A stretch of 64,000 bases of DNA, taken from assembly GCA_963971285.1 (NCBI GenBank), contig OZ020249.1:6944001-7008000 (forward strand). The letters are read 5' to 3'. Every line of letters starts with the position of its first letter. Position 1 is the first letter of the stretch. This DNA comes from Astropecten irregularis (Eukaryota; Echinodermata; Asteroidea; Paxillosida; Astropectinidae). Positions 24,960-63,722 of this stretch are shown here, one piece after another. The notes beneath the pieces were generated by a model, which saw nothing but the letters and a program-made list of their open reading frames with translations, was not told the DNA's origin and ran no database searches. The position numbers and the translations under genes were made by a program.

Positions 24960-25352
<393 letters not shown>

Positions 25353-25530: not shown

Positions 25531-26156
25531 TTAATCAGGATTCTCACAGTTGTAGGTCACGTCCAGATACTCTTTACTCCCAGGCCAGGTGTCCTCAAAA
25601 TCTCTGCCACTAATGGAGCATCTTGATTTGGACTCGCAGAGGGCAAATACCTTTTTACCGGCAATAGGATCCGATCTATCTTCAGTAGGTAGTGCTGCAC
25701 CAGCATCCAAGCAGTATGCTTCACCAGCCCGACGTCCAAAAAACACGGATTTAATGTTGATGACCCCTTTGCCAGGTGGACAGACTAGATAAGCTGACCG
25801 GTCCTCACAAACACGCAAATTGAAGACCTGATCTACTGCCACATCGTGAGTCACAGGCTTGTGTGTGCAGACGAACTTGATATAGATGTAATTGAGGGCC
25901 CCAAAGCATGGCTCGCCGAAAGCCTGAGTGGTACTGGCATCCAAGACACATTGATTCTGACCTTGACACATATTGCGTATAATGTCCAAAGTTTGGTCAT
26001 TGTTGCAATTATCTGCATTGCCAGCTTGCAGACAGACATCGTCAACCTTTGGGCCAAACGAGGCTTCTAGGATATTGACAAATCCTGTGCCACAGTTGAT
26101 GGTTGAACACTCTAGCTGTAACTGTGGCCTGACCAGGACCTGTGGAACTGGCACAG
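25531..26156 (-). CDS. Galactose-binding lectin domains 3 and 4, C-terminus and stop
   Basis: One 626-nt exon with two SUEL-type domains ([20 protein letters not shown] ... [22 protein letters not shown] ... EYLDVTYNC) and then ENPD and TAA at 25531-25533. In copy 1 an intron splits the final strand (FLQ|VNFRC). Here the exon reads straight through to the stop, so this is a natural C-terminus in this form of the transcript. Confidence 0.93.
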
Positions 26157-29100
26157 CTGTTGAGGAATTGAGACAACAATACAGACACAATAAAAGAGAA
26201 TTCAAATTCTCTGAAAAGACAAATCTTCTGAAAGAAAACAAATTCAATGAATGGTTTGTAAAATCCAAGAATACTCATACAATTGAATCTTAGATCCAAA
26301 AGGACACTTCAAGAATTCCCAGGCAAATCTAAGCGTTTTCATAACAGTCCAGTCCCCTATCTTTTAAAAGATCAAAAATAAAAGAGAAAAGACTTAAGAA
26401 ATACTGTGGCCGTTTTTCATGATTTTCTAAAAAAGTGGGCACCGTATGGAAATGAAATTTTCACAGATAAATGTTACTGTATCTTCCTTGACATTTTTGC
26501 CCAAGTGTTGTGTTTTTTTGGGGGACACGCTGTATAGTTTGCTGAAAGTACAAAATGAAACATAGCATGTTTACATAGGAACATGTCCAAGTTACATACA
26601 TACCAAGGCACTTTTTGGACTCTGTATCACGGAAGTAGCCATCTTTGCACACACAAGCAGGAGCCTGATCCGCTGTACCGCAAAGTTCATTACTTTGACA
26701 GGCGTTCTGTTCACAGTGTAATGTCCCTCCTTGACAGGAGCAGATGCTGGAACAATCCACTTTCATGAACGATTGATCATGCTGTCAAAGATTTCAAATC
26801 AGATCATTATTTCTCAAAACAGTGTACTACAGAATGCTTGAAATATTAATAAGATAAAAAAAATATCCAATGACAAACAATATAAGTAATTTTAAAACCC
26901 TTTAAAAAGTTGATAAATTACGGCTGGCCTAGCCTCTTAATCTGCCATTTCACCCAGACAAAGGAAAAATATATTTAACATTTATTAAATGTTTCAGCAA
27001 GGAATATTTCTCCAGCTGTCATATTCAATACAATGTCATGGCACAGTGTAACATTTCACAAACCTCCCTTGAGACGGAAAGCGGGTAATCGATAAACTAT
27101 GCATTTTGTGAATGTAAAATGTTGCTAGTACCATCACGATGCTAAGGTTGCGCATGAAGCGCGCGCAGTCTGCAAAGGCAATGTAACACATAGAAAACAC
27201 ATGCATGCGCATTGCAAAGCACTTCGCAAGGGAGAAATTTTGTCGTAGGTCTGGACCTCGGTCAAAATCTCTCAAGGATTCACCAGGCCGACGTCGGTCA
27301 CTCTCAAGCATTGGTGTCCTTTCACAGGATGACACTTTTGTAAGATTTCACAACCGTGAGAGAATTTCTCAATGGTTGAGAGTTTTTTGGGGGCGTTGTG
27401 TGAAAAGGCCTTTAGAAGACAAAGCTTGATCAAGCCCTTACCTTGTAATAAATACCGCTTTCAGGATCTACACACCCACATTTTTCAATCTCGATACAAT
27501 TCTTGCCATCTCTGACCATTCCATGTGGACAGATACAACCTTCTAAGTCGGGTTCTTGACAGGTGGATGAAGCAAACTGATTGGCACAGGTGTCTGGACA
27601 TGCAGAGCTAGAGGGACTGTATATCATTAAATTGGCTGAACAGTCCATGTCTGTCACAGCAAAAGGAAAAGAACTGTGTTTCAACAAAAATGGAGAAATA
27701 ATTCAAGCCTAAAGATTTGCCTACAAATTTGCCTGACCACTTCTTAAAGGTATAATACATGATTGGCAAAGGTCACAGAATCACACACACACTTTGTCTG
27801 ATCAAACACGTACATGAAATGATAAACCTGTGAAAATTTGAGCTCAAATCGGAAATCTGAGTCACGAGAAAATAGCGATTATTAATCTTAATAATCATGA
27901 GACATGTCTGAACTTACAACAGAAGTCCGGTCTTCTCCAGTTGACGATGGTATTATTCTTTCTACATTCATCAGCATAGGTACTGTAATCCTCACAGTAA
28001 CTTATGTCACCACCCGTACTGCAAAAATCCGTCACGCAACCGTTGTAGAAGAATGTCTTATCAACCTTTGCATGACAATCCGCAAATGGTCCTATGAAAA
28101 GCAAGCAAATAATCAACCATTTTATCCTTCATAAGCAGTCATAAATGACAATTCTTAACCATCTATAATCATTGGTAATCATTTACAACCATTCTTAACC
28201 ATCTATAATCATTGGTAATCATTCACAACCATTCTTAACCAGTTATTATCATTGGTATAATCATTTACAACCATTCTTAACCATCTATAATCATTGGTAA
28301 TCATTTACGACCATTCGCAACCATCTATAATCATTGGTAATCATTGACAACCATTCTTAACCATCTATAATCATTGGTAATCATTTACAACCATTCTTAA
28401 CCAGTTATTATCATTGGTATAATCATTTACAACCATTCTTAACCATCTGTAATCATTGGTAATCATTTACAACCATTCTTAACCAGTTATTATCATTGGT
28501 ATAATCATTTACAACCATTCTTAACCATCTATAATCATTGGTAATCATTTACAACCATTCTTAACCAGTTATTATCATTGGTATAATCATTTACAACCAT
28601 TCTTAACCATCTGTAATCATTGGTAATCATTTACAACCATTCTTAACCAGTTATTATCATTGGTATAATCATTTACAACCATTCTTAACCATCTATAATC
28701 ATTGGTAATCATTTACAACCATTCATAACCATCTATAATCATTGGTAATCATTTACAAACAATTCTTAACCATCTATAATCATTGGTAATCATTTACAAA
28801 CAATTCTTAACCAGTTCTAGCTAGGCTCAAAGGATGAACACTTACCATCTTCAGCAATGATGCCATTGCACATAGCTAGTGCTTGAGCTTTTAATTCCGC
28901 ATCCGAACAGGGTTCTGGTAACACACAATCTTCACAATCTTCACATATTTCTTCAGATCCAGGTTTGGGAACATTCCATGATCTTCCAAAGGAATCTTGA
29001 TCAGTTGCCTGCACGTGTGTAAAAAGAAAATGTCGTTGCTCTTGAGTGGGTTTTTTGAAAAATGAAGCATAGGCTGAACAAAACAATGGTGTTGGTGTGT

Positions 29101-32100
29101 ATGTTGGCTAAAGACAATTTCACACAATAGCAAGCAATAACAAAAGGACATTCACTACAACTGCACAATTGTTAAAAATAGAGCTATGACACATACAGCC
29201 AAAACCTCTTGTTACTGGTTCAACTGTTTTCATGCAAACAATTTCTTCAACTTCTTATTAGCGATTTACAACCCTAAATAAAAAATAAAAAATTAAAACA
29301 ATTTAAAAGGTGAACAAAGACAAATTGACTGGAGTGGGATTCAAATCAGTGATCCCTGGATTACCATAAAGGCACTCTACCACCTGAGCTATCCAGCCCT
29401 ATGTTGGTGGTTTCCCTAATAGTCAATAGCGCTAATGACGTCACAAAATCCCCGGATGTCAGACAAACATTGACTCACACATGTAGTGTACATGGATGCG
29501 CACACACACACACACGTTTGCATGGTTGCAATGTTTGTCTGAGATCGGGTGCTATTTTTAGCGCAAGTGCGGAGCGCTATTATCTTTGTTCCTTTGGCAG
29601 TCAGAAGCCATGAAACCACACAGGTACTGCCACATCCCAAAGATCATTTTTTAAGATACACGCAACATTAGGAATGCTGCAACCTGAGAAACGATATATG
29701 GGGGGGGTCCCACAGCTAGTGAGTCTTTTTTTAATAACCGAAGAATTTAACTGGTTCCCTTAACTCTCATTATAGGAGGAGAATCTAACTGGTTCCGGCA
29801 ACCACTAATACAAAACTTACTATTTCTCCAAGTCTTGTCAAGTAGTCGTCCTCTTGATTACCATTATACGTGCCACAAAGTCCCTCAGTATGACCGGCAA
29901 AATCTGCATTGACATGAACCTCAGCATTGGACCAACCATCCCAATCAATGCGTAAACCAATGTCAGTATGAATAACCTATTAGTTAAAACAAAGGAAACA
30001 GAAGAACAAGGTACATTAGAATAGAATCATTGCATCCTTCTTGATAGCGAAGTTTATAATTATAAATGGGGTATTAGGGAGACACGTTAATTAGCGTCTG
30101 AAAGTGAACATTAGGGAGACGTCGGGAATTAGGGAGACATTTCAATGTTTCCCTAAGGTACCAACTGCCTTTTACAGACATATTTTTATTGTCCAAATTT
30201 TAATAGAAGACAGAGAATGCTCTCAGTATGAACATAAGTAAATTTCAAGTTCATTGGTTTGGAGAATGTTTAAAAATAGGTAAGTAAAGTTTGTGCACAA
30301 CACTATGGGAAAGTCTCCCTAAGGTCCCATCCTCGATAATAATAATAATAATAATGGGCATTTATAAAGGGCCTTTCCAAGAAGATCAAAGCGCTGTACA
30401 TTATTATTATCCCTGGTCATCGGGCCATAATTTACATTCCTGAAACCATCTCAACTCCCTGGGCCGGGGAGCATACAGCCCCGGCTACAATAAGGCACAC
30501 ACAGGCTAATCAAAGCACAGAGCCAACTCGCAGGTACCCATTTACACCTGGGTGAAGAGGAGCAATATGTGATAAAGCGTCTTGACCAAGGACGCAAGCA
30601 CCACTAGCCCATGGCTGGATTCGAACCCACAATCTGTAGATTGACCACAGGATCTTGAGTTCGACACGCCAGACCACTAGGCCACAGTACCCCACATATG
30701 CACTCTTCATCAAAGACATTCAAAAGAAGCAGTACACAAAAGCAGAAATTCTGAAATTCTAATGAGAAAATGAAGATATTGGAGGAGTATACAAAATGAA
30801 GAATTCTGTGGGAACAATTTGCATATTTCATTGTAGAAAAAAATGGTCCATCTTAATATTCTGCTGATATTGGTTTTAGAATCAAATGCATTGTTTCATG
30901 CAATTCAAAGTAATGAATTTAGAAGTATACAAAACTATACACCAATCCGACGACGCGACCATGGAGGTGGGAAACATCCACCATTACTGCAGTGTCCCTG
31001 CCTGTATTTTGTCCGGCAACAAAAGAATTTATGTCAGCCTCACTCTATACTGCAGGGTGTACGTCCCCTTATCATGGAACATACACGCCCTGCAATTATA
31101 GAGTGCGGCAGAGCATAAATTCTTTCGTTGCCAGTAATGCCAGACAAAAGGCAGGCAGGGACACTGCAGTAATGGCAGACAGTATATCGTGCCCTCGGAT
31201 CGTTCTATAAGAAGTTTAACTCCTATTCAAGACAGAGGGATATGTGGACAAAATGACAATATTGGAAGATCAAGGATGAGATTATTTGGGTTCTACCCAC
31301 CACATTTGGACTGTTGAGAACAATTTCCATCTTTTCAGTCTTCAAACCTTGAATTTCTATACCGTCACGCAACGTCTGGCCTTTCGTCAGACTTACGACC
31401 TATAAAAGTAATCATAAATAAACGGGGGAATTGATGGAATGGCTTAAACAATATGTTTAAAATAACCACTTTATAAAAACAAACGAACAAACTAAGAAAC
31501 AAAACCCACTTAAAGGTAGTATCCTACTTTGGTAAGAAACCAAAACAAAAATGTTCACAGATTTACGTATGACTTACAGGGTATGAAGATGGTGGTGGTA
31601 GAAACATAGGTCCATAAAATGTTTCCGCCTGAAATGGTGTATTTATCCAGAAACTAGTAAAACAACGACCGAAAATGTTTTTATCTTTTTGATCCTTTAA
31701 AAGATCAAAAATAAAAGAAAAAAGCTGTTTTTCACTGTTTTCTCAAAAAGTGGGCATCGTATGGGACTGAGATTTTCACAGATGACTATTACTGTATCTG
31801 TCTTGATATTTTTGCCCATGAATCTGTATTTCTTTGATAAAAACCAAAGTATGATATTACCTTTAAAATTGACAGATTTTAAATTTGAGCTGTTGGAAAC
31901 AATAGCGCTCCGCACTAATGACGTCACAAAATCCCCGGATGTCAGACAAACATTGACTCACACACGACTGGACATGCACGCGCACACCCACGCACCATAT
32001 TACGCCGTGTGCATGGTTGCAATGTTTGTCTGAGGTCCGGTGCTATTTTTAGTTAAAGTGCGGAGCGCTATTAAGTTCATTGTCACAATTCACAGCAGGG

Positions 32101-35100
32101 AATATAGTGAACACATTCTGCCTCGTCATTCAATGTAAAAGACCAGGGCCCAATTTCATGGAATCCGTTACCGTTAGCAAAAATTCTTCACTTACGGTTG
32201 CAGACTTTATTTGGTTACGGTTAGCGTATTTCACGGAAGAGTTTCCTTTTTGGGAACAGTAAGCAAGGAATTTCTGCAGAATGCATATGACGGCGCGTTA
32301 GTAGAAAATGATCACGGTTACCCTGGAAATTCTTTGCTATTAACAGAAAGGTCGAGACTTGCTTGCGGATTCCATGAAATAAATTTCACGCGTAGCAGTG
32401 CCCGTAAGCACACAAATAGGCCGTAACGGATTCCCTGAAATTGGGCCCAGGTAATCGTTTGAACAACCCACAACCATTGCTAATGTGGCCTTGTGATGGA
32501 GCAACTATTTCACAAGCTGAGATTTATGTCTGGGATATGCCAGGATTCTGTAATGGATGGATTCTCCAGCTGAATTTCAAGTTATGGACCATAGCAAAGA
32601 CCTCATGGTATTTTTCTCATTGCTCATTTTCTCTGTGTGTTTCAACAATTCCAATTAAAAGCTACAGTACAGGATTGGTAAACATACCCAACCAGAAATG
32701 TTCACAGATTTATGTATAACTTTCAGGATATGAAGATGGTGCTGGTAAAAACACACAATTAAAATATTTCCGCCTGGAATGGTGTATTTATCCAGAAAGT
32801 AGTCAAACAAAGACCGAACACAGTTTTGATCTCGGGGTTAGATCAAAACCATTCTTTACAAGTTTTATAAGAAAAATTGAGTCGGCTATTTTTTCGTGAC
32901 TCAGATGTCCGATTGAGCTCAAATGTTCACAGGTTTATCATTTCATGTACATGTTGGATCAGACAAAGTATGAGTGCTGTCCTGTGACCTGTACCAATCA
33001 TGTATTGTACCTTTAACTCTCGTTAGCGTTGTTTCAATTCTTGGCTGATAAAAAATAAACAGATTAACAGAAAACAAAGAATATGTGGAACAATACATAC
33101 ATGGCCATCGTAAATGAAATCAACTTCAATAGTTGATGTCATAGAAGGGACGCGTCTTGCTCGTTGGTTGCTAACAATAATTTCAAAGTCGGGCACTTCA
33201 CCATCGGAATTCTTGACCAGTGTATAACTACAGTGACCCATGAAGTCATACTCTAGTCCATCAAAGGTGATGTAATGGGGATCTCCTTCTGCTCTGCAAA
33301 TTGCCTGTCCTGGAAAAAAACCGATAACATCAACGCCGGTCAAGCTCAGTTTAGCATGACGCTCATGTCGCAAATTAATTATTATCCCTGGTCATCGGAC
33401 CATAATTTACATTCCTGAAACCATCTCAATTCCCTGGGGAGTGTATAGCCCCGGCTACCGTATTCAGCGCACAGAGGCTAATCAAACCACAAAGCCATCT
33501 CTACCCTCACAGGTACCCATTTACACCTGGGTGGAGAGGAGCAATAATGTGATAAAGCATCTTGCCCAAGGACCATGGGTGTCGATCCCGGGGGGGGGGG
33601 GGGGGGGGGGATGGGGATGGGGGGGATATATCCCCCCAATATTTGACATGGGGGGATGGCGTGTATTATCATCCCCCCCAATATTTTGAGGTTGAATGTC
33701 ATTCAATTTTATTGTATAGAAATATTACATGATCTTTGTTGTTTTGTTAGTCTTCGCAATGAATTTATACTGTTTAATTCTTCTGAATATTGTTTTTAAA
33801 TGCTCTAAAATGAGACTTTTCGATTCTGTTTCTATTAAAAAGTCCTTGTTTTGGGAGGGGGGTATCCCACCTCCCACAGCCTCCATCGGCTCGGTCGCTT
33901 CGATCCCTCGCATAGAACACCAAATCACCAATCATCCCCCCCAATCATGAACAGAAATCGACACCAGTGCCAAGGATGCAAGCACCATTAACCAATGGTT
34001 GGATTTGAACCCACAATCTTTAGATTGACCACGAGACTATTTTGAGTTCAACACGCCAGACCACTAGGTCACAGCACCCCATGTGCTTTTATTGCAAGCT
34101 TGGATCATAACAACAGACCCAGCAACTTGTCCTACCTACTCTTGTCAAATAGCCACAGATTCACTAAGCACTAGTCTTTATGTCATATCCTGCCCAGTCT
34201 AAATGCCAAATAAAACAACTTTCATAGCACCATCACGTCATCTTGAAAGCCACACATCAATAACTAAGGTGCGTTCAAGTAGGTCACCTAGGTCGCTCCG
34301 AGTCAGCCCCCGTACCGTTCGATTAGGTCTGACGTCACTAGGGGTTCACCCAGGACAGCCACCAGTGACCCTGCTCGTGAGCAGAGTCAGTGGTGGGAAA
34401 CACATCACACAAATTCAAGATGGCGGAAAGGTAAGCAAGCGTTGGATTAGCCGGGCTGTGGTGACTGATCCGGGTGACGTGACCCGTATTTACCGAGGGA
34501 AGCTACTCGAACGCACCTTAAGTATCTAACTATTAAAGTTTAATCAGACTAATATCCTAAACACTGAAAGAATCTAACAATGTTCATATGAGTATTATAA
34601 GTTACAGAAAATTGTCCTGCATTTGGAGGCTACACAGTGGCAAACATAAGTAGACCCAGAAACAAAGGTCCTGTTTGTTTAACGCAAAGGATCCCATATA
34701 TAGGGATCCACCTCCTATGCAGGGTATACACTAAAAATGGATCAGTATGATCCGTGATCCTGTGCATTAAACAAACAGGCCCCAAGATTACAGAATCCAC
34801 AAAATGAATAGTAATAACAAGACTATGGACCTTTGTCTTGTTTACAAACATCTTCTTGACAGACGGCGTGACCAAATTCAACATTTTTGCAAACAAATTT
34901 CCATAGCTGTACAAACTACATACCGTCATTGCTTGTGTTGTTTTCATTACATTCAGCAATATCTTTGAATGGTTTATGAAATGTTGTGTACAAATTGGGT
35001 ACAAATTGTGGGTATTTTTGTATGCCTGGCTTTGACGGCCGCTCGCCAAAGTTTTTCGCCATCTTGGTTGGTAAAAACTCTGGCTGTGACGTTGGAAAAG

Positions 35101-54230: not shown

Positions 54231-54271
<41 letters not shown>

Positions 54272-57200
54272 AGAGCCGGAGCCAGAGCCGGAGCCAGAGT
54301 TTGGAAATGGGACTATGATAAGGGCTTACTTGAGCATCCAAGAAGTTCAAGTCGCATGGAAGGATTGTTGTGAGACTTCAGAATGTAAAGGCGAACGTAC
54401 AGAGCTTCAATAGCGTCAGTGAAAAAGTTGGTTCTCACAGAATTCTGATCCACGTTTCCAGGGAAAATCTAAGGGACAAACACAGTATAGACTACAATCA
54501 AATTCAAATTCACTAATTAAAATCCCAATCACTATGCCCATGATATCAATGGAAACATGCATAAATTGAAGGAGCCATACTTTGGTTTTTGTCCAAGAAA
54601 TGCAGATTAATTTATGAGCATATTATATCAAGACAGATACAGCAACAGTCATCTGTGAAATTTCCAGTCCCATACTGTGCTCACTTTTTGAGAAAACAGT
54701 GAAAAACGCCATGGTATTTCAAAACCTTTTCAACTTACATTTGATCTTTTAAAGATTTAAAGTTTTGATCTTTTAAAGATTTAATTAGACAGATGAACTA
54801 AGTGCCCGTTGTATAGTGTTGCCGGTTCGAATCCCGCTTCAGTCAATTTTTCTTTGTTCACTTTCAATGCAAATAAATGTTAGACATAATATTTGAGATT
54901 GTCAGATGATAGTCTAAGAATTCCTTTTCATCATCTACTTACATCTCTGATTTCCTTGTTGAATTTCACGTACTGGTAGTTCTGGGGTTGTTTGGTGACG
55001 TAATTGATCGAGGCTGAATAGTCGATGGCGAAACTAGTCACCCATGCATCTGTCTGGGGATTTCCCTGCGTGGACACGCCCGTCAGTCTGGTCTCATGGT
55101 CCAATTTAATCTGTATAGTAAAGACAATGACAATTAGAAGGCTGGTACGTATAGCTGATACAATCTCAATGTCATGAATATTAATTGATTTTTTTTCTTT
55201 CTCAGGCCGTGTCCGAAATGACTGTCTAGAGCTAGGTCTACGGCTATTGTCTACGGCGGCCATTTTGAAGCGCTGTCCGAAATGCTATCTACAGCTAGAG
55301 CTACGGCTACAACGTCATCAAAATCTAGCCGTAAGAAGTGTTGTCTTGATCCGCGCAAACAAAATGGCGACTGATCATGCTGAGTTTTTCGGGGTCAACG
55401 GAAACACACAAAATGAGCTGTTGTTCGGTTCTGGTTTTACTGTCAGACTTACTGTTCTTGGAAAGAGTTCTTCATATCATTATCCATCCTGATGAAGTCG
55501 ATCGCCCGTTGTAAACAAACATTTGCTCAACGCGGACCCGTAACGATCGAGCAGACGATAATTCGATGACGTCAGAAAAATTAACTTAAAATATCACTTG
55601 AGGGCGTAATACGTAGCCGAAGCTGCGTCCGAATTCCAATGGCTAAAGCGCTTCCGTAGACGTAGCTGTAGCTGTAGACCTAGACCATAGCTCTAGACAA
55701 CAATTTCGGACACGGCCTCAATGTCACAGACACTTTCCTCCAAGTATGCTTTTGAAATAGGTCATATATTTTATATCTATAGAGGGCGCTATACTGATCA
55801 TTTTTTTCCTTTGGGGTACACTTACAGACATATAATTATAAATGCATAGACCGCCAGTCCGTGATTATGAAAAGCATGGGCAAAGCGGTCAATCGCTGCG
55901 CGTGACCGCGTGCGTTTGGCGCGCAACGTGCGTCTTGTAATAAGAGCATGCATTTGACAAGAATTTATGCTTTTTTTGGTCTCGCTAGCTCTTGATTTCC
56001 AAGTATAAACATTGGCATCGCATTACTTTGAAGTACTTAATCCTAACTAAGTATATACACTGTATGAGGTTTCTTTTTTTTTATTTGGAAAATGGCTTCA
56101 TGGAATTTTTTGCCTGGAACTCTTCAACTATGCGTAAATTCCCTATACCGAGGGGTGAATTTGCCCAAAGTTTTTATTTCAGCCGGGCACCAAGGATCCG
56201 GAGATCACCAAAACCCCCTGTAATTTTGAATAGGATCTGGCGATCTATGCGTTTATATATCTTTGGGTATACCACATAACATGAAGTTATGCCCAAAATA
56301 TATAATCATGTGAATGGGAGACTTTTGGAGAACCGGTCTTGAGTCAACAGTGCACGCGCAAACCATGCTTGCGCAATTGTGAGCATGCGCACGTTGTTCT
56401 GTGCGTGCGTGTGCTTGCGCTGTTGACTTTTGACCGGTTCTCCAAAAGTCTCCCATTGTTTTTAATCACCTGTATATCAACTTCATTCCATGTATCGATT
56501 TACTTTTTTTTTCTCTGAAAATTTTAATAACACCAGTCTCGATCATATATATCCCTCTTCCATGAAAATTCATCAGCATATAAACCATCTGAGGAGAATT
56601 TGTTAAAATTATAATAAGAATTCAAGTTTGTATGATTGTTCTGTTTGAAACGTTTCCATTGGGTTATTTTACCGTGATAATTGGGTCCAAAACCTCAGAA
56701 GTCCATGCATTTGCAGCATTGAGACGAACCAGTGCAGGATTTTCATCCACGGCTGAACTGAAACTGATTGACTCATCTGGAATAGCGCCACTCTCCATAC
56801 CTAGACCTCCTGTACATGAGACTAAACGTACAAACAAAAACATTGAAACATTTTAATCCCCATCATCTGATTGGTTGATCTCATAAATCCCCATCATCTG
56901 ATTGTTTAATCTCATTAATCCCCATCATCTGATTGGTGAATCTCATTTTAAACAAAAACATTTAAACAGTTAAATCCCCATCATCTGATTGGTGAATCCT
57001 ATTTAAAATACCCGACATCTGATTGGTTAATCTCAATAATCCCTGTCTGATTGGCTCATAAATCCCCATCATTTGATTGGTTAATCACATAAATCCCCAT
57101 TATCTGATTGGTTAATCTCATTATAAATCCCCATCATCTGATTGGTTAATCTCATTTTAAATCCCCATAATTTGATTGGTGAATCACACAAATCCACATC

Positions 57201-59569
57201 ATCTGATTGGTTTATCTCATTTTAAATCCCCATCATCAAATAGAAATGAACTTACTGGGAGGCAAGGTTTCTTTAGCCTGTCCAACTCCTGTAATACACA
57301 AAGCAGGACAAAAAGTCTAAATGAAATGAATCTGAAGAAGATCATGGCAATAAAATCGGACGTACTTGTAGAGTACATCTTGAATGAACAATTGGAGACT
57401 TTTGACTATAAACCATTGTTAATCTTAAGAGGTCGCGCTACACCAGTCTCGGGATAAGTGGGTCGATTCTGTTGTCATTGCTTTTGTGCACGAATATTCC
57501 TTGTAAACACAACCGACATCAAATAAGCACATAAAAATGCCTGGTACATACTGTGCAATGTTCAGTTGTGAGGACAAGATTGGCCATCAAAAGGGCGAAT
57601 TACAAACAATCATGGTGGCCGATGGCAAGCAGCATAGTGTTTTGTGCACAAAGTTTTTACTTTGGCAAGCGAGACCTAGCACATTATTCCTCGCCAAACA
57701 TAAGAATTTCACCTCACTTTGTGTTTTTTGGGGCATTAAAATTTGGGTGGGCGGCAATGTCAAACAATAAAAATTAATTGTAAATTGCCTGAATTTAAAG
57801 TTCACAGCATTTTCCTGCGACTTTTGAAAAGTTTTTGGACAATCGCCGCACTTAAAGCGTGTACATAAGTTTTCAGGGAATGGTAGTTTGCATATCAACT
57901 CTGATATACATCAGATGCATTTTATCAAACTCCAAATTGGAATTTGTATTAAAGGTACAGTACAGGATTGGTAAAATTTAGGTTCACAGATTTACGTAAA
58001 ACTTACAAGGTATGAAAATGGTGATGGTGGAAATAAACTGTTAAAATATTTCCGCCTGAAATGGTGTATTTTTTCAGAAATGAAACAGTTCTGGTAAGAT
58101 CAAAACAATTCTTCATGTTTTTTAGGAAACATTGAGTTGATTTTTCGCTATAAAGTTCTCATGACTCAGATGTCTGATTGAGCTCAAATATTCACAGGTG
58201 TGTTATTTGATGTCCATGTTTGATCAGACAAAGTGTGAGTGCTCTTCTGTGACCTTTACCAATCATGTATTATACCTTTAAAACAAAACAAAGTAATAAG
58301 CTGAGTGAGTCGTACCTTCCTGGGTAATTATCGCATTGAAGGAGAATGCAGTTTTCCGTTTCTTGTATCGCTTCATCTTGATTTTGTCACCCACTTGAGG
58401 ATTTCTAAGATTACGAACGCGTCTGTTTCTGGCAAACATGTACTGGGATTTGTCGTGCGCCCTCTTGTGCTGAAAGAGTGGACTGCTTCTACGAGATGAA
58501 AACGCAATCATCTGACCAGAGCGAACCTCAATCCAATCATTTGGCTCTAGAATATGCTGATGGAAATAATAGATCAATAAATAACTCAAGTAATAAATAA
58601 ACTGATGCTGCAAACTGCTCATCAGCCAAAATGACCTGAAATATATCAAATGCTTGGAGTTAGGAGGGCCTGACATGTTTCGATCCTAGCAGAATCTTTC
58701 TCAAAGGCTATATGCCTAAATATTCAGAGATCAGATCTATGAGCAGCAGCACAGCTTAGAGCATCTGTAGAAAAATTGCACATCAGCAAATTAATTTTGT
58801 CTTATGAATGTTTAGAAGGCACATTTTATGAGTGATTAACAAGGAATAGACCTTTCTTTTGTTTAAAAATACTGACATGCTGGTTGGCAATACTTGGCAT
58901 GGGCGGCCAAATGTTGCAAATCATTTCGTCTTCTTGACAGACGGCGTGACCAAATTCAACATAATTTGCAAACTTTCCATAGCTATACAAAAATTCATAC
59001 CATCATTGCTTGTGTTGTTTCCATTACATTCAGCAATATCTTTCAACGTTCATGAAACGATGTGTACAATCTGTGGTTGTCTTTTATGCCTGGCTTTGAT
59101 GGCTCGCCATAGTTTCCGCCAGGCTTGGTTGGCAAAAACTCGGGCTGTGACGTTGCAAAAGAAAGGTCTAAATATGGGTGTACTTGGAACTAGTTGTCAA
59201 AAACGTGAATTGCACTTTATACATCAATGCTCTGTAGGCTAATAACACTCACTAAAATGTGCTTAAAAACTATTGTGATGTTGAACTTTGACATGATATT
59301 CACTACTACAAACCATCAGCTATTCCCCTTTTCCAAACAATTGGATTTGGCTTTGGCTTTGTCTATGATCCAAAAGCCGATTCCTTGTGTTTTTGTGGAT
59401 TCTGAAAGCACTGCTTTGTTGTTCAAAATAGAGTGTCTACCAAAATGTAGCCTATCGCCTCTATTTTCATAACTCATACATTGAGTATTAATGGATATTC
59501 AAAATCAAATAGCCTGAGCCTGAGCCTGATGAGCCTGAACCTAGCTGAGCCTTAGCGTGAGCCTTAGCG

Positions 59570-59626
<57 letters not shown>

Positions 59627-62600
59627 TGAGCCTGAACCTGAGCCCCAGCCCCAGCCCTGGCCCTAGCCCTAGTCTGAGCCACAGCTAACAGTAAAATATA
59701 ATAATAATTTGGGAGGCTAATCATCTTAGTTGGCAGCTGGAGTGCTGAATTATGAAGGATGGTGCTACATGTGATCGAGTAGCAGGCTTTCATGGGCGCC
59801 CTTTGGCAGCCAGCCACATCAACCCATTATATGATCACTGAGCACAGCCTGAGATCGAAAGTGTTTGATTTTGTGGAGGGAGGGAAAAATGGAATAATGG
59901 ACATTATATTGATTAGAGACATGATGGTTTTGTATTTTTAGTACACAAATTATTGTTATTAAACTCCTGAACAAGATTTCTAAAGAGGAAATTCCATTAT
60001 CCATTAGGACACTTAGGATCGGGAGTGGGTGCAAAGAAATATACACGTGGCCATATGTATGCTTGACTATATTACACACTCACCTCATACATTTCTCGTC
60101 TTCTCATTTTTCTTGATTTCCTGATCCGAGTCATTCCAACAATCTTGAATACTCCCCTCTTGATGTTGATTGGATGTAAGACATAGAATCTGATGGAACT
60201 ACGTCTCTTTGGAATCATTTGCCAGCCTTTGATGTAACTGTTTAAACGGATATGAAGGTCAAACAAGTTATACAGTGTGTCCCCCAAATAAACCATGATA
60301 CCCATTTTCAAAAAGTTATGAAAAGAAATTGTATGTTTTCAGCTATTTGATTTTAAGTCTATTGCATAAACTCACTGGGTAAATTCTGACCAAAATTCAA
60401 TGCAATCCATTCATGCATCGCCGAGCAATAGCGCTCTGCACTTGCGCTAAAAATAGCACCGGATCTCAGACAAACATTGCAACCATGCAAACGTGTGTGG
60501 GTGTGTGCATGCATGTACACTACGTGTGTGAGTCAATGTTTGTCTGACATCCGGGGATTTTGTGACGTCATTAGTGCAGAGCGCTAAATACTGATTGTCT
60601 TGAAAAGTCCATTTTGCTACCATTACAAATGAGTGACAGTTGTGGTCATCTTAGTGGTGAGATTTACAGATCACAGCTAAGAATGTTGAGATGACCATGC
60701 ACACAACTGTCACTCAATTGTAATGGCAGGAAAATGGACTTTTCCAGACAATCAGTAATTGCTCGGTGATGCATGAATGGATTGCATTAAAATTTGGTCA
60801 GAACATGGCCTGGGAGATATTGAATGCAATAGACTAAAAACCAAATAGCTGAAAACGTACATTTCCTTTTCATAATTTTTTGAAAATGGTTAATTTTTTT
60901 TTTGGGGGGGGGAACACACTGTATATTACATAAAATGATAATGCAAGGAGTTTAGTCTGGTGATTGCAATTTAAAATGTGTATGAGCAATGGTATTAAGT
61001 CAGGGGACAATGCAAGAGACAATATATGACAAAGTCAATGCGCGGTATTTTTGAACGCATGAGGGTGCTGTTAGGTGTACAACTTTATTTACTTCCGGGG
61101 GTACAGTCCGATTAATTGTCAATTGAGCAGAGGTCATTTACGGACAATTTTGTCTTTTGGGATACGATAGAAGTGTATATTTTTACTACGACATGTACGA
61201 GTTGTATTCTGACACAGTGGTACACAAGAACAAGGCATTGTCAAATGACCCCCGGAAGTAATTCGAAGCGCCCTCAAGCGTTCAAAAATACCGCGCATTT
61301 ACTGGCAATAATGGGAGACTTTGGAGAATCGGTCTTTAAGTCAACAGCGCACGCACAACAGCGCAGGCGCAAAACAACGCGCGCTTGCTCACAATTGCAT
61401 GCGTGTGCGCTGTTGACTTGAAGACCGGTTCTACAAAGTCTCCCATTATAAGCTCCGGGCATTCTTCAAGAAAACATAATATATGCAAATTTTAATTTCC
61501 ACAACTTTCTTGGAAATTGAACAAAGTTTTCCTTCTTGCATGCAGTGTTGTAAATGGTTCCTTTAATATGCCTGAAAAGATTGCTTTGTCTGACATGGCT
61601 CAATACATGATTGGTCACAGAACTGCACTCACACTTGATCAAACATGTACATGAAATAATAAATCTGTGAACATTTAAGCTCAATGGGACATGATCTGAG
61701 GCACAAGAAAATAGCAAAAAAAACACTAAATTTTTCTCATAAAGAATGGTTTTGATCTTGCCCCGAGATCAAAACTGTTTTTGGTCTTTGTTTTACTCAT
61801 TTCTGGATAAATACACCATTTCAGGCAAACATATTGTTTCTGTTTGGGTATGTTACCAATCCTGTGAAAGATATTAGTCAGCAATTGATAAGATTAAAAT
61901 GTTACCTACCTATTACAAGTAATAGGATTTTCCACATTGACGGCAAACGTCCTGTCAGATTGAGAATATTTCCACTGCCTGACGAGAGGATTCACTCCCC
62001 ATTCTTTGTCACAAACGACTGTCAGACAAAACAGAACAAAATTCAAATAATAAGAACAACCCAAAGGAAAAGATAAACTCAACTCATATAGTTAATTTAT
62101 GTCACAAATTTGTGACATGGGCAGTTTCACAGTAACACAAGTTATCTTTTAAGTATTTTTGACCTATTCCTTGATCAATTTATTCTTAAAAGACTCCAAT
62201 TTAGAAATGTTTTATAAGAATCAATAAGTATACCACTTATGGTTCCTTAGAAATGCATGCAAATTTGCAAAAAAAGATGTAACTTACATTACAAAAAGTA
62301 CCAAATAGCGCTCCGCACTAAAGACGTCACACAAGTGATTTGGCTCGCGCATGCATGTAAAAAAACCCGGATGTCAGTCAATCTTCATGCATGCACACAA
62401 CATGCACAGCCACACACGTTTGCAATGTTTGTCTGAAATCAAGTGTCCTATTTTTAGCGTAAGTGCAGAGTGCTATTCGTGTTCACTTTGCAAAGAATCA
62501 AGGTGTACTACAAAGTCATCTATGAAACTTTGAGAAATAGCGCTCCGCACTTGCGCTAAAAATAGCACCGGATCTCAGACAAACATTGCAACCATGCAAA

Positions 62601-63722
62601 CGTGGGTGCGTGTGTGCGTGCATGTACACTACGTGTGTTAGACAACGTTTGTCTGACATCCGGGAATTTTGTGACGTCATTAGTGCGGAGCGCTATTGAA
62701 GTCATTTTCTGTTTTCTTCCCACATTTGATTTAATATTTGTTATCCATTCTCCCTATTAATAAGAAGGTCCCAAATATCTTACTCAGGCAGCCATGTACT
62801 TCAAAGCGAAGTCCAGCGTCATCCTTCCATTCCTCAGCATATATCCTGACATACTGGCCCTTTTCTGCATCCTTGAAAAACACCTGCGTCACGGTGTCTG
62901 AATCGGTATTTCCATAGAAGATCTAAACAATTGTATACACAAATCATAAGCTTAGATTACAAGTATCACAACCAAGCATGGGTATGGTTGCAATGCCTCC
63001 CTTCAAAGTATCATGGAAACCAATGCCGTATATAACATGATGAGAGTAATGATGGTCTTTTTCACACAAAAAACACATTGATATAAATTAATAAAAAGCT
63101 GTTCAATTAACAGTACTATCATACTTTAGTAGCATACCAAACAGAAATCTTCACAGATTTACCGAGAACTTACAGGAAATACAAATGGTGATGATAGAAA
63201 CATACAGTTTCGTCAAACCGATGACCCAAAACAATTTTGATCTTTTAAAGATAAAAAATAACAGCGAAAAGATTTTTAAATTACTATCCGCATTTTTCAC
63301 TGTTTTCTCAAAAAGTGGGCACAGTATGGGACTGAAAATTTCACAGATGACTGTTACTGTATCTGTCTTGATATTTTTGCCCATGAATCTGTATTTCTTT
63401 GACAAAAACCAAAGTATGATATTACCTTTATAGTCCAGCGAGAATTGAAACGATTTTTTTTGCACAAGCTATAAGAGCATAACTTATAATTAAGAAATTC
63501 AAGACAAAAATATTTATAAGAAAATTACTTTTGAAAAGTAAATTTAGGTAAAATACACAAACAAAATGTGAAGATTACCTCACTACCACGGTTATCGGTG
63601 GCCTTGGTCCAGCTGGTAAGGTCCTTACTCAAGTGAACTTGGAACTTGGTCAACCATCTTTCTTCACCATTACAACCTTGAATGCTGATTCCTGTCACTA
63701 GGGTAGGACTGCCTAAATCAAT
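25531..63722 (-). CDS. Sfp1-like multidomain secreted adhesive/clotting glycoprotein, 3' part of gene (27 exons)
   Basis: C-terminal 1713 residues of a giant extracellular protein; the 5' end is outside the window. Exons in coding order: 63579-63722, 62784-62922, 61910-62018, 60084-60237, 58316-58556, 57256-57288, 56673-56809, 54943-55110, 54330-54468, 52660-52779, 47442-47653, 45752-45859, 45176-45334, 43576-43723, 41625-41804, 38798-39000, 37953-38130, 36136-36728, 35138-35300, 33101-33309, 31301-31399, 29821-29976, 28846-29008, 27918-28091, 27442-27650, 26604-26781, 25531-26156. They sum to 5142 nt with unbroken frame and GT-AG introns. Domain order is F5/8C, basic region, F5/8C, EGF, [VWD-C8-TIL-SUEL lectin x2], EGF, [VWD-C8-TIL-SUEL lectin x2]. 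The same domain kinds occur in the sea-star footprint protein Sfp1, a structural component of adhesive secretions, and (without the lectins) in arthropod hemocytin/hemolectin. An adhesive role is inference; a coelomocyte clotting or egg-coat role is also possible. Confidence 0.9.
26358..26501. repeat. Family A repeat fragment
   Basis: Middle segment only (TTTTAAAAGATC through TTGACATTTTTGCCC), in the last intron of the Sfp1-like gene. Confidence 0.65.
26604..27650 (-). CDS. TIL domain 2 plus VWC/EGF-like tail
   Basis: Exons 27442-27650 and 26604-26781. The first has [11 protein letters not shown], then [12 protein letters not shown] and [13 protein letters not shown]. The second is exactly 178 nt, like its counterpart in copy 1, and starts [16 protein letters not shown] and ends [10 protein letters not shown] ... 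KCL. Confidence 0.92.
27046..27415. mobile_element. Fold-back element
   Basis: Arm GTAACATTTCACAAACCTCCCTTGAG pairs weakly with internal TTTCACAACCGTGAGAG; right end GGGGGCGTTGTGTGAAAAGG. GC-rich interior of mixed sequence. Confidence 0.4.
27747..27890. repeat. Family B repeat fragment
   Basis: Left part only, starting AAAGGTATAATACATGATTGG. Confidence 0.65.
27918..29008 (-). CDS. C8 domain 2
   Basis: Exons 28846-29008 and 27918-28091. Shows [20 protein letters not shown], then [20 protein letters not shown], and [12 protein letters not shown]. It is parallel to C8 1 exon for exon. The intron within it holds the 28143-28816 tandem array. Confidence 0.93.
28143..28816. repeat. Tandem array of 40/42-bp alternating units
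   Basis: Units of AACCATTCTTAACCATCTAT + AATCATTGGTAATCATTTAC alternate with a variant (AACCAGTTATTATCATTGGT + ATAATCATTTAC), giving a higher-order repeat in the middle. Lies in the C8 2 intron. Confidence 0.85.
29318..29425 (-). repeat. Degenerate tRNA-like repeat
   Basis: Diverged copy (GACTGGAGTGGGATTCAAAT) whose flank continues after the family-D insertion, at TATCTTTGTTCC. Confidence 0.6.
29426..29582. mobile_element. Family D TIR element with CRE
   Basis: TIRs AATAGCGCTCCGCACT-like. Internal TGACGTCA and GGATGTCAGACAAACATTG, mirrored as CAATGTTTGTCTGAGATC. It is inserted within a tRNA-like repeat. Confidence 0.75.
29821..33309 (-). CDS. VWD domain 2
   Basis: Exons 33101-33309, 31301-31399 and 29821-29976. 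Opens [20 protein letters not shown] and closes [16 protein letters not shown]. Exon sizes (209, 99, 156) parallel VWD 1 (212, 108, 159) with the same phases. GDPH is again intact, so both VWD units keep the potential self-cleavage site. Confidence 0.95.
30330..30697 (-). repeat. tRNA-derived SINE with (ATT)n tail
   Basis: Same SINE, minus strand, nearly full length: TGTGGCCTAGTGGTCTGG head and GGGTTCGAATCC B-box, ending AGCGCTTTGATCTTCTTGG then an (ATT)n tail. The tail half resembles the 39923-40000 fragment. Confidence 0.8.
30949..31208. mobile_element. Family H palindromic element, second copy
   Basis: Same arms (CCATTACTGCAGTGTCCCTG ... CAGGGACACTGCAGTAATGG) and centre (CTGCAGGGTGTACG). 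Confidence 0.7.
31512..31866. repeat. Family A TIR repeat
   Basis: Full-length copy with both TIRs, in the intron between exons 20 and 21 of the Sfp1-like gene's list (33101 and 31399). Confidence 0.8.
31901..32072. mobile_element. Family D TIR element with CRE
   Basis: Full copy with AATAGCGCTCCGCACT ends and an internal TGACGTCA, adjacent to a family-A repeat. Confidence 0.8.
32144..32453. mobile_element. Fold-back element, GGGCCCAATTT ends (second copy)
   Basis: Arms GGGCCCAATTTCATGGAATCC ... inverse, interior GCTTACGG/CCGTAAGC-like. Confidence 0.75.
32657..33017. repeat. Family B TIR repeat
   Basis: Full-length copy in the opposite orientation, with TIRs CTACAGTACAGGATTGGTAA and ACCAATCATGTATTGTACCTTT. 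Confidence 0.75.
33381..34085 (-). repeat. tRNA-derived SINE split by a later insertion
   Basis: Same SINE in two pieces (33381-33573 and 33970-34085), interrupted by a 396-bp TIR element. Confidence 0.8.
33574..33969. mobile_element. TIR element inserted in a SINE, with 8-bp duplication
   Basis: Flanked by CCAAGGAC and CCAAGGAT, a probable 8-bp target duplication with one change. The ends carry GGTGTCGAT in inverse orientation. The interior has poly-G/poly-C-rich arms (GGGGGGATATATCCCCCCAA). The 396-bp insert has no coding capacity. Confidence 0.75.
34267..34527. mobile_element. Fold-back element, AAGGTGCGTTC ends
   Basis: Arms AAGGTGCGTTCAAGTAGG ... GCTACTCGAACGCACCTT. Interior GGTCACCTAGG pairs with GGGTGACGTGACC. 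Confidence 0.75.
34842..35110. repeat. Dispersed repeat, pair with 58927-59172
   Basis: Shared TTCTTGACAGACGGCGTGACC, CATTGCTTGTGTTGTTT, TGCCTGGCTTTGA and CTGTGACGTTG. Of unknown type. Abuts the EGF 2 exon. Confidence 0.65.
35138..35300 (-). CDS. Lectin 2 end plus EGF-like domain 2
   Basis: A 163-nt exon. VNFRC finishes the second lectin domain, then [12 protein letters not shown] and [14 protein letters not shown] form a complete EGF-like domain. This EGF sits before VWD 2 exactly as EGF 1 sits before VWD 1. Acceptor TTCTAG, donor GTATTG. Confidence 0.92.
36136..36728 (-). CDS. Galactose-binding (SUEL-type) lectin domains 1 and 2
   Basis: One 593-nt exon with two tandem domains. Cysteine landmarks: [13 protein letters not shown] ... 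[12 protein letters not shown] ... YVRYQC, then [11 protein letters not shown] ... [12 protein letters not shown] ... CPDVQKFLQ, completed by VNFRC in the next exon. The YGR and DPC tripeptides seen in many rhamnose-binding lectins are not intact, so sugar specificity cannot be assumed. The acceptor runs through a 12-base polypyrimidine tract. Confidence 0.93.
36990..37690. mobile_element. Long fold-back with near-perfect palindrome
   Basis: A near-perfect palindrome at about 37028-37145 (centre GAGGCGCAGCCGAGG, arms including GATCCCCTGCGCGTTCTATT) lies in the first quarter. GGGGTGTTATAAAA at the right end is the inverse of TTTTATAACACCCC at about 37173, so two fold-backs share a border. Confidence 0.65.
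37953..39000 (-). CDS. TIL domain 1 plus VWC/EGF-like tail
   Basis: Exons 38798-39000 and 37953-38130. The first encodes [19 protein letters not shown] and ends [11 protein letters not shown] (trypsin-inhibitor-like, cysteine-rich). The second starts [16 protein letters not shown] and ends [15 protein letters not shown]. The donor of the first (AGG|GTCTGT) is weaker than the others, but the frame and the match to the second copy support it. Confidence 0.9.
38233..38366. mobile_element. Family D TIR element, shorter copy
   Basis: Ends AATAGCGCTCCGCACT and AGTGCAGAGCGCTATT. The CRE end is altered and the interior is shorter. Confidence 0.75.
38395..38758. repeat. Family A TIR repeat
   Basis: Full-length copy ending 39 bp from the TIL 1 exon. 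Confidence 0.8.
39229..39532. mobile_element. Fold-back element, AGGTGCGGTTCTA ends
   Basis: Left GCGGTTCTACGGGGGGGCTA and right TCTAGAACCGCGCC. C-rich and G-rich subterminal blocks (CCCCCCAAAAA) are repeated four times. Confidence 0.65.
39923..40000. repeat. (AAT)n microsatellite with SINE-tail fragment
   Basis: (AAT) repeats followed by TTTATATAGCGCATTTTCC and CAAATGCGCTGAATACA, a tail motif like that of the SINE at 30330. Confidence 0.6.
40625..41417. repeat. 37-bp tandem array, each unit with TGACTCA
   Basis: About 21 units of 37 bp, such as TCTTGACCTAATGACTCAAC followed by TCAACTCGACTCGACAG. About 18 contain an exact TGACTCA. In the intron between C8 1 and TIL 1. Confidence 0.9.
41625..43723 (-). 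CDS. C8 domain 1
   Basis: Exons 43576-43723 and 41625-41804. Contains [14 protein letters not shown] before the domain, then the eight-cysteine pattern through [15 protein letters not shown] and [11 protein letters not shown]. Always paired with VWD and TIL in mucin, VWF and zonadhesin-like proteins, as here. The intron between its last exon and TIL contains the 37-bp tandem array. Confidence 0.93.
42482..43053 (-). mobile_element. P-element-like fragment with THAP-like coding remnant
   Basis: Bounded by AATGGGAGACTTTT and its inverse, the same ends as the family-C MITEs. On the minus strand it reads [20 protein letters not shown] followed by in-frame stops, resembling the N-terminus of a THAP zinc finger (M-P-x-x-C-x-V-x-x-C with FPK). 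THAP domains begin P-element-type transposases. Internally deleted and not functional. Confidence 0.6.
43150..43540. mobile_element. Fold-back element, CCTGTCCACACTGGAC ends
   Basis: Left TTAAGCCCTGTCCACACTGG, right AGTCCAGTGTGGACAGGGAT, with CCGCACTGGACTTTT repeated inside. Ends 36 bp from a C8 exon. Confidence 0.7.
43881..44238. repeat. Family B TIR repeat
   Basis: Full-length copy ending ACCAATCCTATACAGTACCTTT. Confidence 0.75.
44303..44517. repeat. Inverted pair of tRNA-like repeats, short loop
   Basis: Same arrangement with a loop of about ten bases between the two AGGGCTGGATGGCTCAGTTG units. Arms of about 100 bp, almost perfectly paired. Confidence 0.8.
45176..47653 (-). CDS. VWD domain 1
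   Basis: Exons 47442-47653, 45752-45859 and 45176-45334. Begins [15 protein letters not shown], the usual VWD opening, and ends [16 protein letters not shown], the usual VWD close with the CGN calcium-site motif. GDPH is the sequence at which several VWD proteins self-cleave between Asp and Pro. The unit supports disulphide-linked multimers in the family. Confidence 0.95.
46303..46382 (-). repeat. tRNA-Thr-like repeat
   Basis: Minus strand: GGCTAGCTAGATGGCCTAGC ... GTGGGTTCGAATCCCAC. The T arm is perfect. The anticodon region CTAGTAA resembles tRNA-Thr(AGT), but the stem has an extra base, so it is a tRNA-derived repeat. Confidence 0.55.
46953..47425. mobile_element. Family E fold-back element, second copy
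   Basis: Same element in the opposite orientation. Its right end (TTTTAATATAGCTCTATGG) lies 17 bp from the VWD 1 exon. Confidence 0.75.
47790..48535. repeat. Degenerate tandem array of about 75 bp units
   Basis: Units with AATGTAACCGATATTTCTGG, CATTTCCCCGTTATTACCAT and CCGATATTACCCCTTTTACC. Subterminal part of the 4.7-kb element. Confidence 0.8.
48833..49131. repeat. Fold-back inside the 4.7-kb element
   Basis: Arms GCTTGACACCATGGTGAATT ... AATTCACCATGGGGTCAAGC, with further pairing through CATCTGACCTCCCAAG and GTTGAACAAAAG. Confidence 0.75.
49222..49385. repeat. Family B repeat fragment inside the 4.7-kb element
   Basis: Half copy (GGTACAGTACAGGATTGGTAAC onward) interrupted at a CT-microsatellite. 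A matching remainder lies at about 50085-50170. Confidence 0.6.
51250..52180. repeat. Tandem array of about 165 bp units
   Basis: Five to six copies, each with GTTATAACCCATTTCAACC, CATCACCCTGTTGTTACTCG and CAACAAGGTAATAACAGTAA. Subterminal part of the 4.7-kb element. Confidence 0.85.
52660..52779 (-). CDS. EGF-like domain 1
   Basis: One 120-nt exon with [14 protein letters not shown] and then [14 protein letters not shown], six cysteines in EGF spacing. It lacks the Asp/Asn pattern of a clear calcium-binding EGF. Phase 1 at both ends, the usual phase of shuffled extracellular modules. The next coding exon is 5 kb away across a transposon-filled intron. Confidence 0.93.
52883..53185. repeat. 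Family B repeat
   Basis: Nearly complete copy upstream of the eroded family-A copy at 53185-53456. Confidence 0.7.
53459..53797. repeat. Family A TIR repeat
   Basis: Copy with both TIRs. It is directly preceded by a second eroded copy at about 53185-53456. Confidence 0.75.
54033..54311. repeat. Family J fold-back with GGAGCC hexamer arrays
   Basis: Ends GGCTCTTTTCCAAAC and GTTTGGAAATGGG, core AGCCTCTATTTTGATAAAC. The right end lies 19 bp from an F5/8C exon. Confidence 0.75.
54330..56809 (-). CDS. F5/8 type C (discoidin) domain 2, complete
   Basis: Exons 56673-56809, 54943-55110 and 54330-54468. Opens with [18 protein letters not shown], the classic discoidin start; the middle has [19 protein letters not shown]; it closes [11 protein letters not shown] and LELLGCS. 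The last exon is 139 nt in both discoidin domains, and both leave in phase 1, showing a shared origin. Expected to bind sugars or phospholipid surfaces. Confidence 0.93.
54570..54770. repeat. Family A repeat fragment
   Basis: Left half of family A (CATACTTTGGTTTTTGTC, CAAGACAGATACAGCAACAG), truncated to the right. Confidence 0.6.
55203..55722. mobile_element. Fold-back element, GGCCGTGTCCGAAAT ends
   Basis: Arms CAGGCCGTGTCCGAAATG ... ATTTCGGACACGGCCT, with TAGAGCTACGGCTA-type subterminal repeats. In the intron upstream of an F5/8C exon. Confidence 0.75.
56313..56457. mobile_element. Family C fold-back MITE (P-like TIRs)
   Basis: Same palindrome, 145 bp, in an intron of the Sfp1-like gene. 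Confidence 0.8.
56860..57235. repeat. Short tandem array with CCAAT boxes
   Basis: About a dozen degenerate units of AATCCCCATCATCTGATTGG + TTAATCTCATTT (30-36 bp). Each carries ATTGG, the inverse of CCAAT. It occupies nearly all of the intron between exons 57256 and 56809. Confidence 0.8.
57256..62018 (-). CDS. Strongly basic unassigned region between the two F5/8C domains
   Basis: Exons 61910-62018, 60084-60237, 58316-58556 and 57256-57288, about 178 residues. It begins [20 protein letters not shown] and has a possible disulphide pair (VCD and TCN) in the first exon. The middle two exons have about 35 Lys/Arg against about 8 Asp/Glu by my count, with clusters such as [12 protein letters not shown] and KMKRYKKRK. 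Blocks such as [28 protein letters not shown] and [15 protein letters not shown] suggest a beta-sandwich. I do not recognise a named family. All four exons join in phase with the flanking F5/8C exons, so it is not a spurious ORF. Confidence 0.85.
57388..57905 (+). mobile_element. P-element-like fragment, second copy
   Basis: Homologous to 42482-43053 in the opposite orientation: ATTGGAGACTTTTGACTATA at the end, then [20 protein letters not shown] at about 57537. The right end is eroded. Non-functional remnant. Confidence 0.55.
57951..58280. repeat. Family B TIR repeat
   Basis: Full-length copy with both TIRs, ending 36 bp from the exon at 58316. Confidence 0.75.
58927..59172. repeat. Dispersed repeat, pair with 34842-35110
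   Basis: Second copy in the same orientation, same landmarks. Confidence 0.65.
59322..59690. repeat. Family J element with GAGCCT hexamer array
   Basis: Left end CCCTTTTCCAAACAATTGG, core TTCAAAATAGAGTGTCTACC, and a (GAGCCT)n arm at 59514-59690. Confidence 0.7.
60271..60924. mobile_element. Large fold-back, ACAGTGTGTCCCCC ends
   Basis: Ends ACAGTGTGTCCCCCAAATAA ... and inverse. Arms pair over several hundred bases (CCATTCATGCATCGCCGAGC with GCTCGGTGATGCATGAATGG). Interrupted by a family-D element. The end sequence also occurs at 26505-26536. Confidence 0.75.
60427..60587. mobile_element. Family D TIR element nested in a larger fold-back
   Basis: Full copy, opposite orientation, interrupting the left arm region of the fold-back at 60271-60924. 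Confidence 0.75.
61036..61303. mobile_element. Fold-back element, TGCGCGGTATTTTTG ends
   Basis: Arms ATGCGCGGTATTTTTGAACGC ... GCGTTCAAAAATACCGCGCAT, interior TTACTTCCGGGGGTAC / GACCCCCGGAAGTAA. Confidence 0.75.
61310..61447. mobile_element. Family C fold-back MITE (P-like TIRs)
   Basis: Same palindrome, 138 bp. It sits directly beside another fold-back element (61036-61303). Confidence 0.8.
61592..61866. repeat. Family B repeat, shortened
   Basis: Copy lacking part of the left interior; its right end is ACCAATCCTGTG. Confidence 0.65.
62304..62477. mobile_element. Family D TIR element
   Basis: Copy with AATAGCGCTCCGCACT left end and AGTGCAGAGTGCTATT right end. Confidence 0.75.
62536..62697. 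mobile_element. Family D TIR element
   Basis: Full copy only about 60 bp from the previous one and in the opposite orientation; both TIRs and TGACGTCA are intact. Confidence 0.8.
62784..63722 (-). CDS. F5/8 type C (discoidin) domain 1, C-terminal two exons
   Basis: Exons 63579-63722 (48 codons, phase 0) and 62784-62922 (139 nt). They show [17 protein letters not shown], then [22 protein letters not shown] and the closing FEVHGCL, the strand order of a coagulation factor 5/8 type C fold, which binds glycans or membranes. The N-terminal part of the domain lies beyond the window. The cysteine that normally closes the domain is present. Confidence 0.92.
63115..63432. repeat. Family A TIR repeat, slightly shortened
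   Basis: Copy with a degenerate left TIR and a good right TIR, in the intron between the two exons of F5/8C 1. Confidence 0.75.

Follow-up and report, generated by a model that had tools for sequence, protein, structure and literature searches.

Exon and domain map of a probable orthologue of the sea-star footprint protein Sfp1, and of the X modules in its beta subunit

The 64,000-nucleotide stretch of DNA analyzed here (the window) carries on its minus strand the 3' part (the last 27 of 64 exons) of a giant multi-domain gene, and the question it raises is whether the encoded chain is a reversible adhesive, a coelomocyte clotting protein, or a tectorin- or egg-coat-like protein assembled from common modules. 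Judging from sequence, we put a probability of roughly 0.93 on the gene being the orthologue of Sfp1, the known tube-foot glue protein of sea stars, because its length, mass, four subunit masses, cysteine content and domains all agree with that protein.

Extent and structure of the gene

We modeled the gene with an exon-chaining finder that scores codon usage and splice signals, using 19 clear protein stretches as seeds, and then corrected the chain by hand, guided by frame and domain continuity and before any residues were counted. The full chain consists of 64 exons running from 110724 to 25531 on the minus strand without a phase clash, and its first 37 exons (64746-110724, window coordinates) lie outside the window, past its end. 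A VWD family search of the 475.7-Mb genome (168 contigs) gave 111 matches, nine of them on the contig of this locus (C12) and all nine on the minus strand: four fall in the window, four at 20.80-20.84 Mb, and one at 7043269, past the window's end, from which it follows that the gene extends beyond the window. GT-AG borders are found at 62 of the 63 introns, the exception being a GC-AG intron in the 5' part of the gene with its donor after 103182.

The initial annotation had described the part from 63722 to 25531 as 27 in-frame exons encoding 1713 residues to a clean stop, with GT-AG borders at every one of 26 introns. Compared as totals, these figures are reproduced exactly by the final model (27 exons, 1713 residues, a single stop, 26/26 GT-AG), and the "3' half" so named amounts to 1713 of 3819 residues. 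The raw finder output from 63722 likewise had 27 exons prior to editing; within this part exon 32273-32196 was removed, 60237-60084 was inserted, and a start at 58488 was moved to 58556. Boundaries altered by hand further comprise 106434, 103182 (the GC donor) and 77578, along with that at 58556. Three finder exons (107661-107553, 99192-99163 and 32273-32196) were rejected as spurious because, once they are left out, the adjacent domain exons connect in frame. The finder's own 66-exon chain scores 549.4 on the minus strand, whereas the finder reaches 13.6 on the opposite strand and 46.0 on window positions 1-25000; five dinucleotide resamples score 4.3-11.0 and the joined introns 5.7. This control is partly circular because the gene itself supplied the training data for codon usage and splice signals, which is not so for the Pfam scores. 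Linker exons of 24-33 nt, each weakly supported by itself, precede all five F5/8C modules.

At the 5' end, a candidate signal-peptide exon at 111401-111329, chosen on hydrophobicity, phase and position, joins in frame and would leave a mature N-terminus QESYISC..., with a weak donor score (-0.4). A rival signal peptide at 130753 was set aside despite its higher ranking score (2.94 vs 1.31), because the peptide at 111401 is a textbook one lying 0.6 kb ahead of the next exon. With this exon the model comprises 3819 aa and 426.7 kDa, and its cysteine content is 5.1%. Downstream of the stop codon lie an ATTAAA at 24768 and an AATAAA at 24136. Features of the window part are collected in Table 1.

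Table 1. Features of the gene within the window, in order of transcription
Feature	Position	Strand	Evidence
F5/8C (discoidin) domain 4, second exon	63579..63722	-	gene model, Pfam F5_F8_type_C
F5/8C domain 4, third exon	62784..62922	-	gene model, Pfam
Module X5, three exons (62018-61910, 60237-60084, 58556-58316)	58316..62018	-	gene model; no Pfam match
33-nt linker exon, phase 1-1, ahead of F5/8C 5	57256..57288	-	gene model
F5/8C domain 5, three exons (56809-56673, 55110-54943, 54468-54330)	54330..56809	-	gene model, Pfam
EGF-like exon	52660..52779	-	Pfam EGF 2.2e-4, gene model
VWD2, three exons (47653-47442, 45859-45752, 45334-45176)	45176..47653	-	Pfam VWD, gene model; FCGBP chain 8r0t_B aligned from the P of GD|PH
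GDPH codons of VWD2	47630-47619	-	
C8-2, two exons (43723-43576, 41804-41625)	41625..43723	-	gene model, Pfam
TIL2 (39000-38798) and TILa2 (38130-37953)	37953..39000	-	gene model, Pfam
Two SUEL lectin domains, single exon	36136..36728	-	Pfam SUEL_Lectin, gene model
EGF-like exon	35138..35300	-	Pfam EGF 1.1e-5, gene model
VWD3, three exons (33309-33101, 31399-31301, 29976-29821)	29821..33309	-	Pfam, gene model
GDPH codons of VWD3	33286-33275	-	
C8-3, two exons (29008-28846, 28091-27918)	27918..29008	-	gene model, Pfam
TIL3 (27650-27442) and TILa3 (26781-26604)	26604..27650	-	gene model, Pfam
Last exon, two SUEL lectin domains, stop 25533-25531	25531..26156	-	gene model, Pfam

Beyond the window's end, long minisatellites occupy introns of the gene at about 82.4-84.5 kb and 67.7-68.7 kb (window coordinates) and give repeated peptides in open frames; tandem arrays at 40630-41414, 28151-28813 and 51279-52181 have units of 37 bp, 40/82 bp and 163 bp; and 48 copies of GAGCCT fill 25061-25348, just past the stop codon. 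Elsewhere in the window, 9467-18817 shares six blocks of 0.5-1.5 kb with the 10-kb flank before the window, in the same order, at 94-99% identity and 19.2-19.7 kb apart, which would represent either a tandem duplication of recent origin or a haplotype left uncollapsed. An open frame on the minus strand at 15314-15823 has its second copy in the duplicated flank; it encodes a peptide that we take to resemble an ABC1/ADCK-type kinase fragment, and the whole frame has no Pfam match at E<=0.01.

Domain plan, self-cleavage sites and subunit masses

A Pfam scan of the translated model, run on four pieces that together cover 3785 of 3794 residues, resolves a continuous series of modules. From the N-terminus, the signal peptide is followed by a fibrinogen-like N domain of ~215 aa, FAMeT, SUEL, EGF, VWD1-C8-TIL-TILa and module X1; the middle of the chain reads F5/8C-X2, F5/8C-X3, F5/8C-X4, F5/8C-X5, F5/8C and EGF; and the end reads VWD2-C8-TIL-TILa, two SUEL, EGF, VWD3-C8-TIL-TILa and two SUEL. 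Best E-values are 1.6e-67 for VWD, 7.9e-59 for F5/8C, 8.6e-35 for SUEL, 1.3e-27 for C8 and 7.3e-19 for FAMeT (PF12248), and counts by part of the chain are 1 + 2 stretches for VWD, 1 + 4 for SUEL and 2 + 3 for F5/8C. TIL and TILa are matched in all three D assemblies and C8 in the second and third, with no C8 match in the first C8 region; one sub-threshold VWC match lies on a TILa module. Two of the three EGF-like modules score above cut-off, the first being a weak hEGF (E 0.012). Thus the combination of VWD-C8-TIL, SUEL, F5/8C and EGF in one chain, on which the initial annotation had built its assignment, is borne out by Pfam, with the first EGF below cut-off. The N domain has no match among PDB sequences at E<=0.01 and in Pfam only COLFI at 0.0028, below cut-off; we name it fibrinogen-like because the matching domain of a paralog (below) hits Fibrinogen_C above cut-off (3.4e-7). 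VWD1 contains a CGLC motif, of the kind used in VWF and mucin polymerization.

All three VWD domains carry a GDPH motif, and cuts at these sites are predicted to yield pieces of 57.0, 229.4, 72.5 and 65.3 kDa. Sfp1 of Asterias rubens (KJ472215.1, UniProt X2KZ73) is described in PMC9382459, PMC7037938 and PMC6410801 as a protein of 3853 aa and 426 kDa with 5% cysteine and subunits of 57, 231, 72 and 66 kDa. Predicted and published masses follow in the same order and agree within 1.1%, and none of 400000 random triple cuts matches the four published masses in order within 1.25%. Together with a chain only 34 aa shorter, of nearly identical total mass and cysteine content, and with the domains named for Sfp1 in PMC9382459 and PMC7037938, which agree with the FAMeT, VWD, C8, TIL, SUEL, F5/8C and EGF modules found here, this agreement supports the earlier assignment to Sfp1. 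The two proteins are not identical in plan: our model has five discoidin domains where the A. rubens protein is given four, and three EGF modules where it is given one (PMC7037938, PMC6410801). An antibody peptide of A. rubens Sfp1 (VDGNDFEYITDEDGRD, a 16-mer; PMC6262867) finds its best placement in F5/8C 1 with 6 of 13 aligned residues identical, a modest placement (score 39 vs 34 in the paralog) that is reached by 1 of 500 shuffled proteins and 2 of 500 shuffled peptides. A peptide of the A. rubens Astacin-like Sfp was not found when up to 3 mismatches over 33 bases were allowed, although an interrupting intron could also conceal it. From these two peptides the DNA probably comes from another sea star than A. 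rubens, its origin from a sea star being itself deduced from the Sfp1 assignment. Sfp1 is reported from all sea-star orders (PMC7037938), and in A. rubens it occurs in adhesive cells of type 1 and makes up the footprint meshwork (PMC9382459).

Work on human FCGBP (PMC10880436) establishes GDPH autocleavage in VWD domains and places the cut between Asp and Pro, with mutation of the Asp preventing cleavage and mutation of the His inhibiting it; there, a first-strand cysteine can hold the cleaved piece through a disulphide bond. FCGBP (PDB 8rde, 8r0t) is by sequence the best solved relative of the VWD-C8-TIL-TILa assemblies (E 2.5e-295), and the alignments to its chains 8r0t_B and 8qci_B begin exactly at the P of GD|PH. 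In the present protein a cysteine stands 4 residues ahead of the GDPH Gly in three of three VWDs. FCGBP differs in having 13 VWD domains rather than three, and we know of no F5/8C, SUEL, FAMeT or X modules in it. VWF, MUC2, MUC5AC and MUC5B share the D-assembly modules and have other partner domains; unlike them, the present gene shows no CTCK match at E<=0.1.

By analogy with A. rubens Sfp1 and FCGBP, we propose that the chain is a secretory product of adhesive gland cells, as in A. rubens, and that each VWD would cut itself between the Asp and Pro of its GDPH to give four subunits. The cysteine ahead of each site may keep the pieces disulphide-linked, the SUEL and F5/8C domains and probably the basic X copies would bind glycans and surfaces, and the D assemblies and cysteines would build the meshwork.

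A paralog and competing readings

The four VWD matches at 20.80-20.84 Mb on the same contig belong to a paralog (20.80-20.85 Mb) that combines three N-terminal domains of the kind opening Sfp1, three VWDs, an F5/8C domain and an X module, and that aligns with the present gene in 16 BLAST pieces of 18.7-36.9% identity. Its three VWDs carry one GDPH, one GDSH and one GVSH, and two more GDPH strings both lie in TIL modules. The model of the paralog is incomplete and was taken without editing (2703 aa, with flanking finder exons 1, 2 and 50-52 left out); in its first 1393 residues, Pfam places VWD, F5/8C and Fibrinogen_C above cut-offs and SUEL, TIL and EGF below them, and finds no match to FAMeT. 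In A. rubens, Sfp2 has a single cleavage site, Sfp1 and Sfp2 both lie on chromosome 11, and the available text of PMC9382459 names Sfp1, Sfp3, Sfp4a and Sfp5 as the type 1 Sfps with FAMeT, Sfp2 not being among them. The two genes on this contig fit the pair of Sfp1 and Sfp2, making the paralog a candidate Sfp2 orthologue. Elsewhere in the genome, VWD matches form a long array on contig C10 (27.05-27.10 Mb), many of them ~2 kb apart, which suggests a large repeated-VWD gene.

These comparisons bear on one alternative, namely that the gene described here is itself Sfp2-like or encodes some other close relative of Sfp1 among the footprint proteins of type 1 adhesive cells. A. rubens Sfp2 (OP067637) does have comparable domains and shares a chromosome with Sfp1 (PMC9382459), but the three GDPH sites and the FAMeT domain found here contrast with its one site and with the lack of a FAMeT listing in that text, and the paralog, with one VWD GDPH and FAMeT absent from the part scanned, is the better Sfp2 candidate. 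We regard this alternative as improbable and largely refuted.

Still less probable is a hemocytin-like coelomocyte clotting protein, which the initial annotation had offered beside the adhesive, or a tectorin- or egg-coat-like protein, which it had named as a refuting case. VWD-C8-TIL with F5/8C is common to hemocytin, and among the F5/8C matches listed, a second locus with VWD and F5/8C about 12 kb apart occurs on contig C19 (12.90-12.93 Mb), so the pairing of these two domains is not specific by itself. Hemocytin, however, ends in a CTCK domain, and tectorins and egg-coat proteins have ZP and NIDO domains; none of CTCK, ZP and NIDO has a match at E<=0.1 in the 3785 of 3794 residues scanned, and the chain ends in two SUEL domains. 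We also know of nothing in hemocytin that predicts four subunits of the Sfp1 masses. The domains thus lend support neither to the clotting alternative nor to the tectorin- or egg-coat-like one. That the finder merged two or more adjacent genes, a thought raised by the 5.0-kb intron between 52660 and 47653, is the least credible reading, as phases fit across all 64 exons, the modules follow one another without a break and the total mass equals that of the published single chain.

The X modules of the beta subunit

Within the beta subunit of this probable Sfp1 orthologue, the five F5/8C domains alternate with five copies of a module of ~160 aa, which we call X (X1-X5). The X modules have no Pfam match at E<=0.1, and a profile of them compared with PDB sequences gives nothing better than E 0.72. 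Among the 15 pairs formed by X1-X5 and the X of the paralog, 13 align better than all 200 shuffles, the weak pairs being X1-X5 (reached by 7 of 200 shuffles) and X4-X5 (1 of 200); X5 is closest to the paralog X (z 29.5), then X3 (z 16.0) and X2 (z 8.8). Comparisons of X with F5/8C 4 or 5 (12 pairs) are all near chance, the closest, X4 with F5/8C 5, being reached by 12 of 200 shuffles. Searched against the whole genome, X1 alone finds only itself and misses the other four copies, so that the family rests on the pairwise shuffle tests and the alignment.

The copies diverge sharply in charge. X5 (~170 aa) has a net charge of +27 and a pI of 11.2 and X3 a net charge of +28 and a pI of 10.9, against -10 for X1, -8 for X2, -7 for X4 and -5 for the paralog X. 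Net negative charge is the rule along the chain (25 of 31 segments); apart from X3 and X5, positive charge is confined to VWD2 (+5) and, at +1 to +2, to the first SUEL, the second EGF and the signal peptide. In truncation work cited as Lefevre 2021, an "unannotated domain" is reported to be important for adsorption of the recombinant C-terminal part of Sfp1 beta to glass. X5 may be this domain, as no other unannotated module lies closer to the C-terminus of beta.

We tentatively propose, at somewhat less than even odds, that beta is a ladder of discoidin domains alternating with an undescribed domain family, in which two copies, X3 and X5, have become polycationic (pI about 11) while X1, X2 and X4 are acidic, like most other modules. 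Such a chain would be a block polyampholyte, gripping sulfated glycans and surfaces of negative charge with its basic rungs, with X5 as the "unannotated domain" that serves adsorption to glass. A description of the X family did not turn up in our limited search of the accessible sea-star adhesion literature, which is not proof of absence.

The presence of the gene is to be expected, as its protein family is already known and well studied in reversible underwater adhesion. The value of the locus lies in a complete exon and domain map and in the conservation of all three VWD self-cleavage sites in a species that is probably not A. rubens. Beyond this, the X family, with its two polycationic copies, is a concrete candidate for the adsorption activity that has been ascribed to the unannotated domain.
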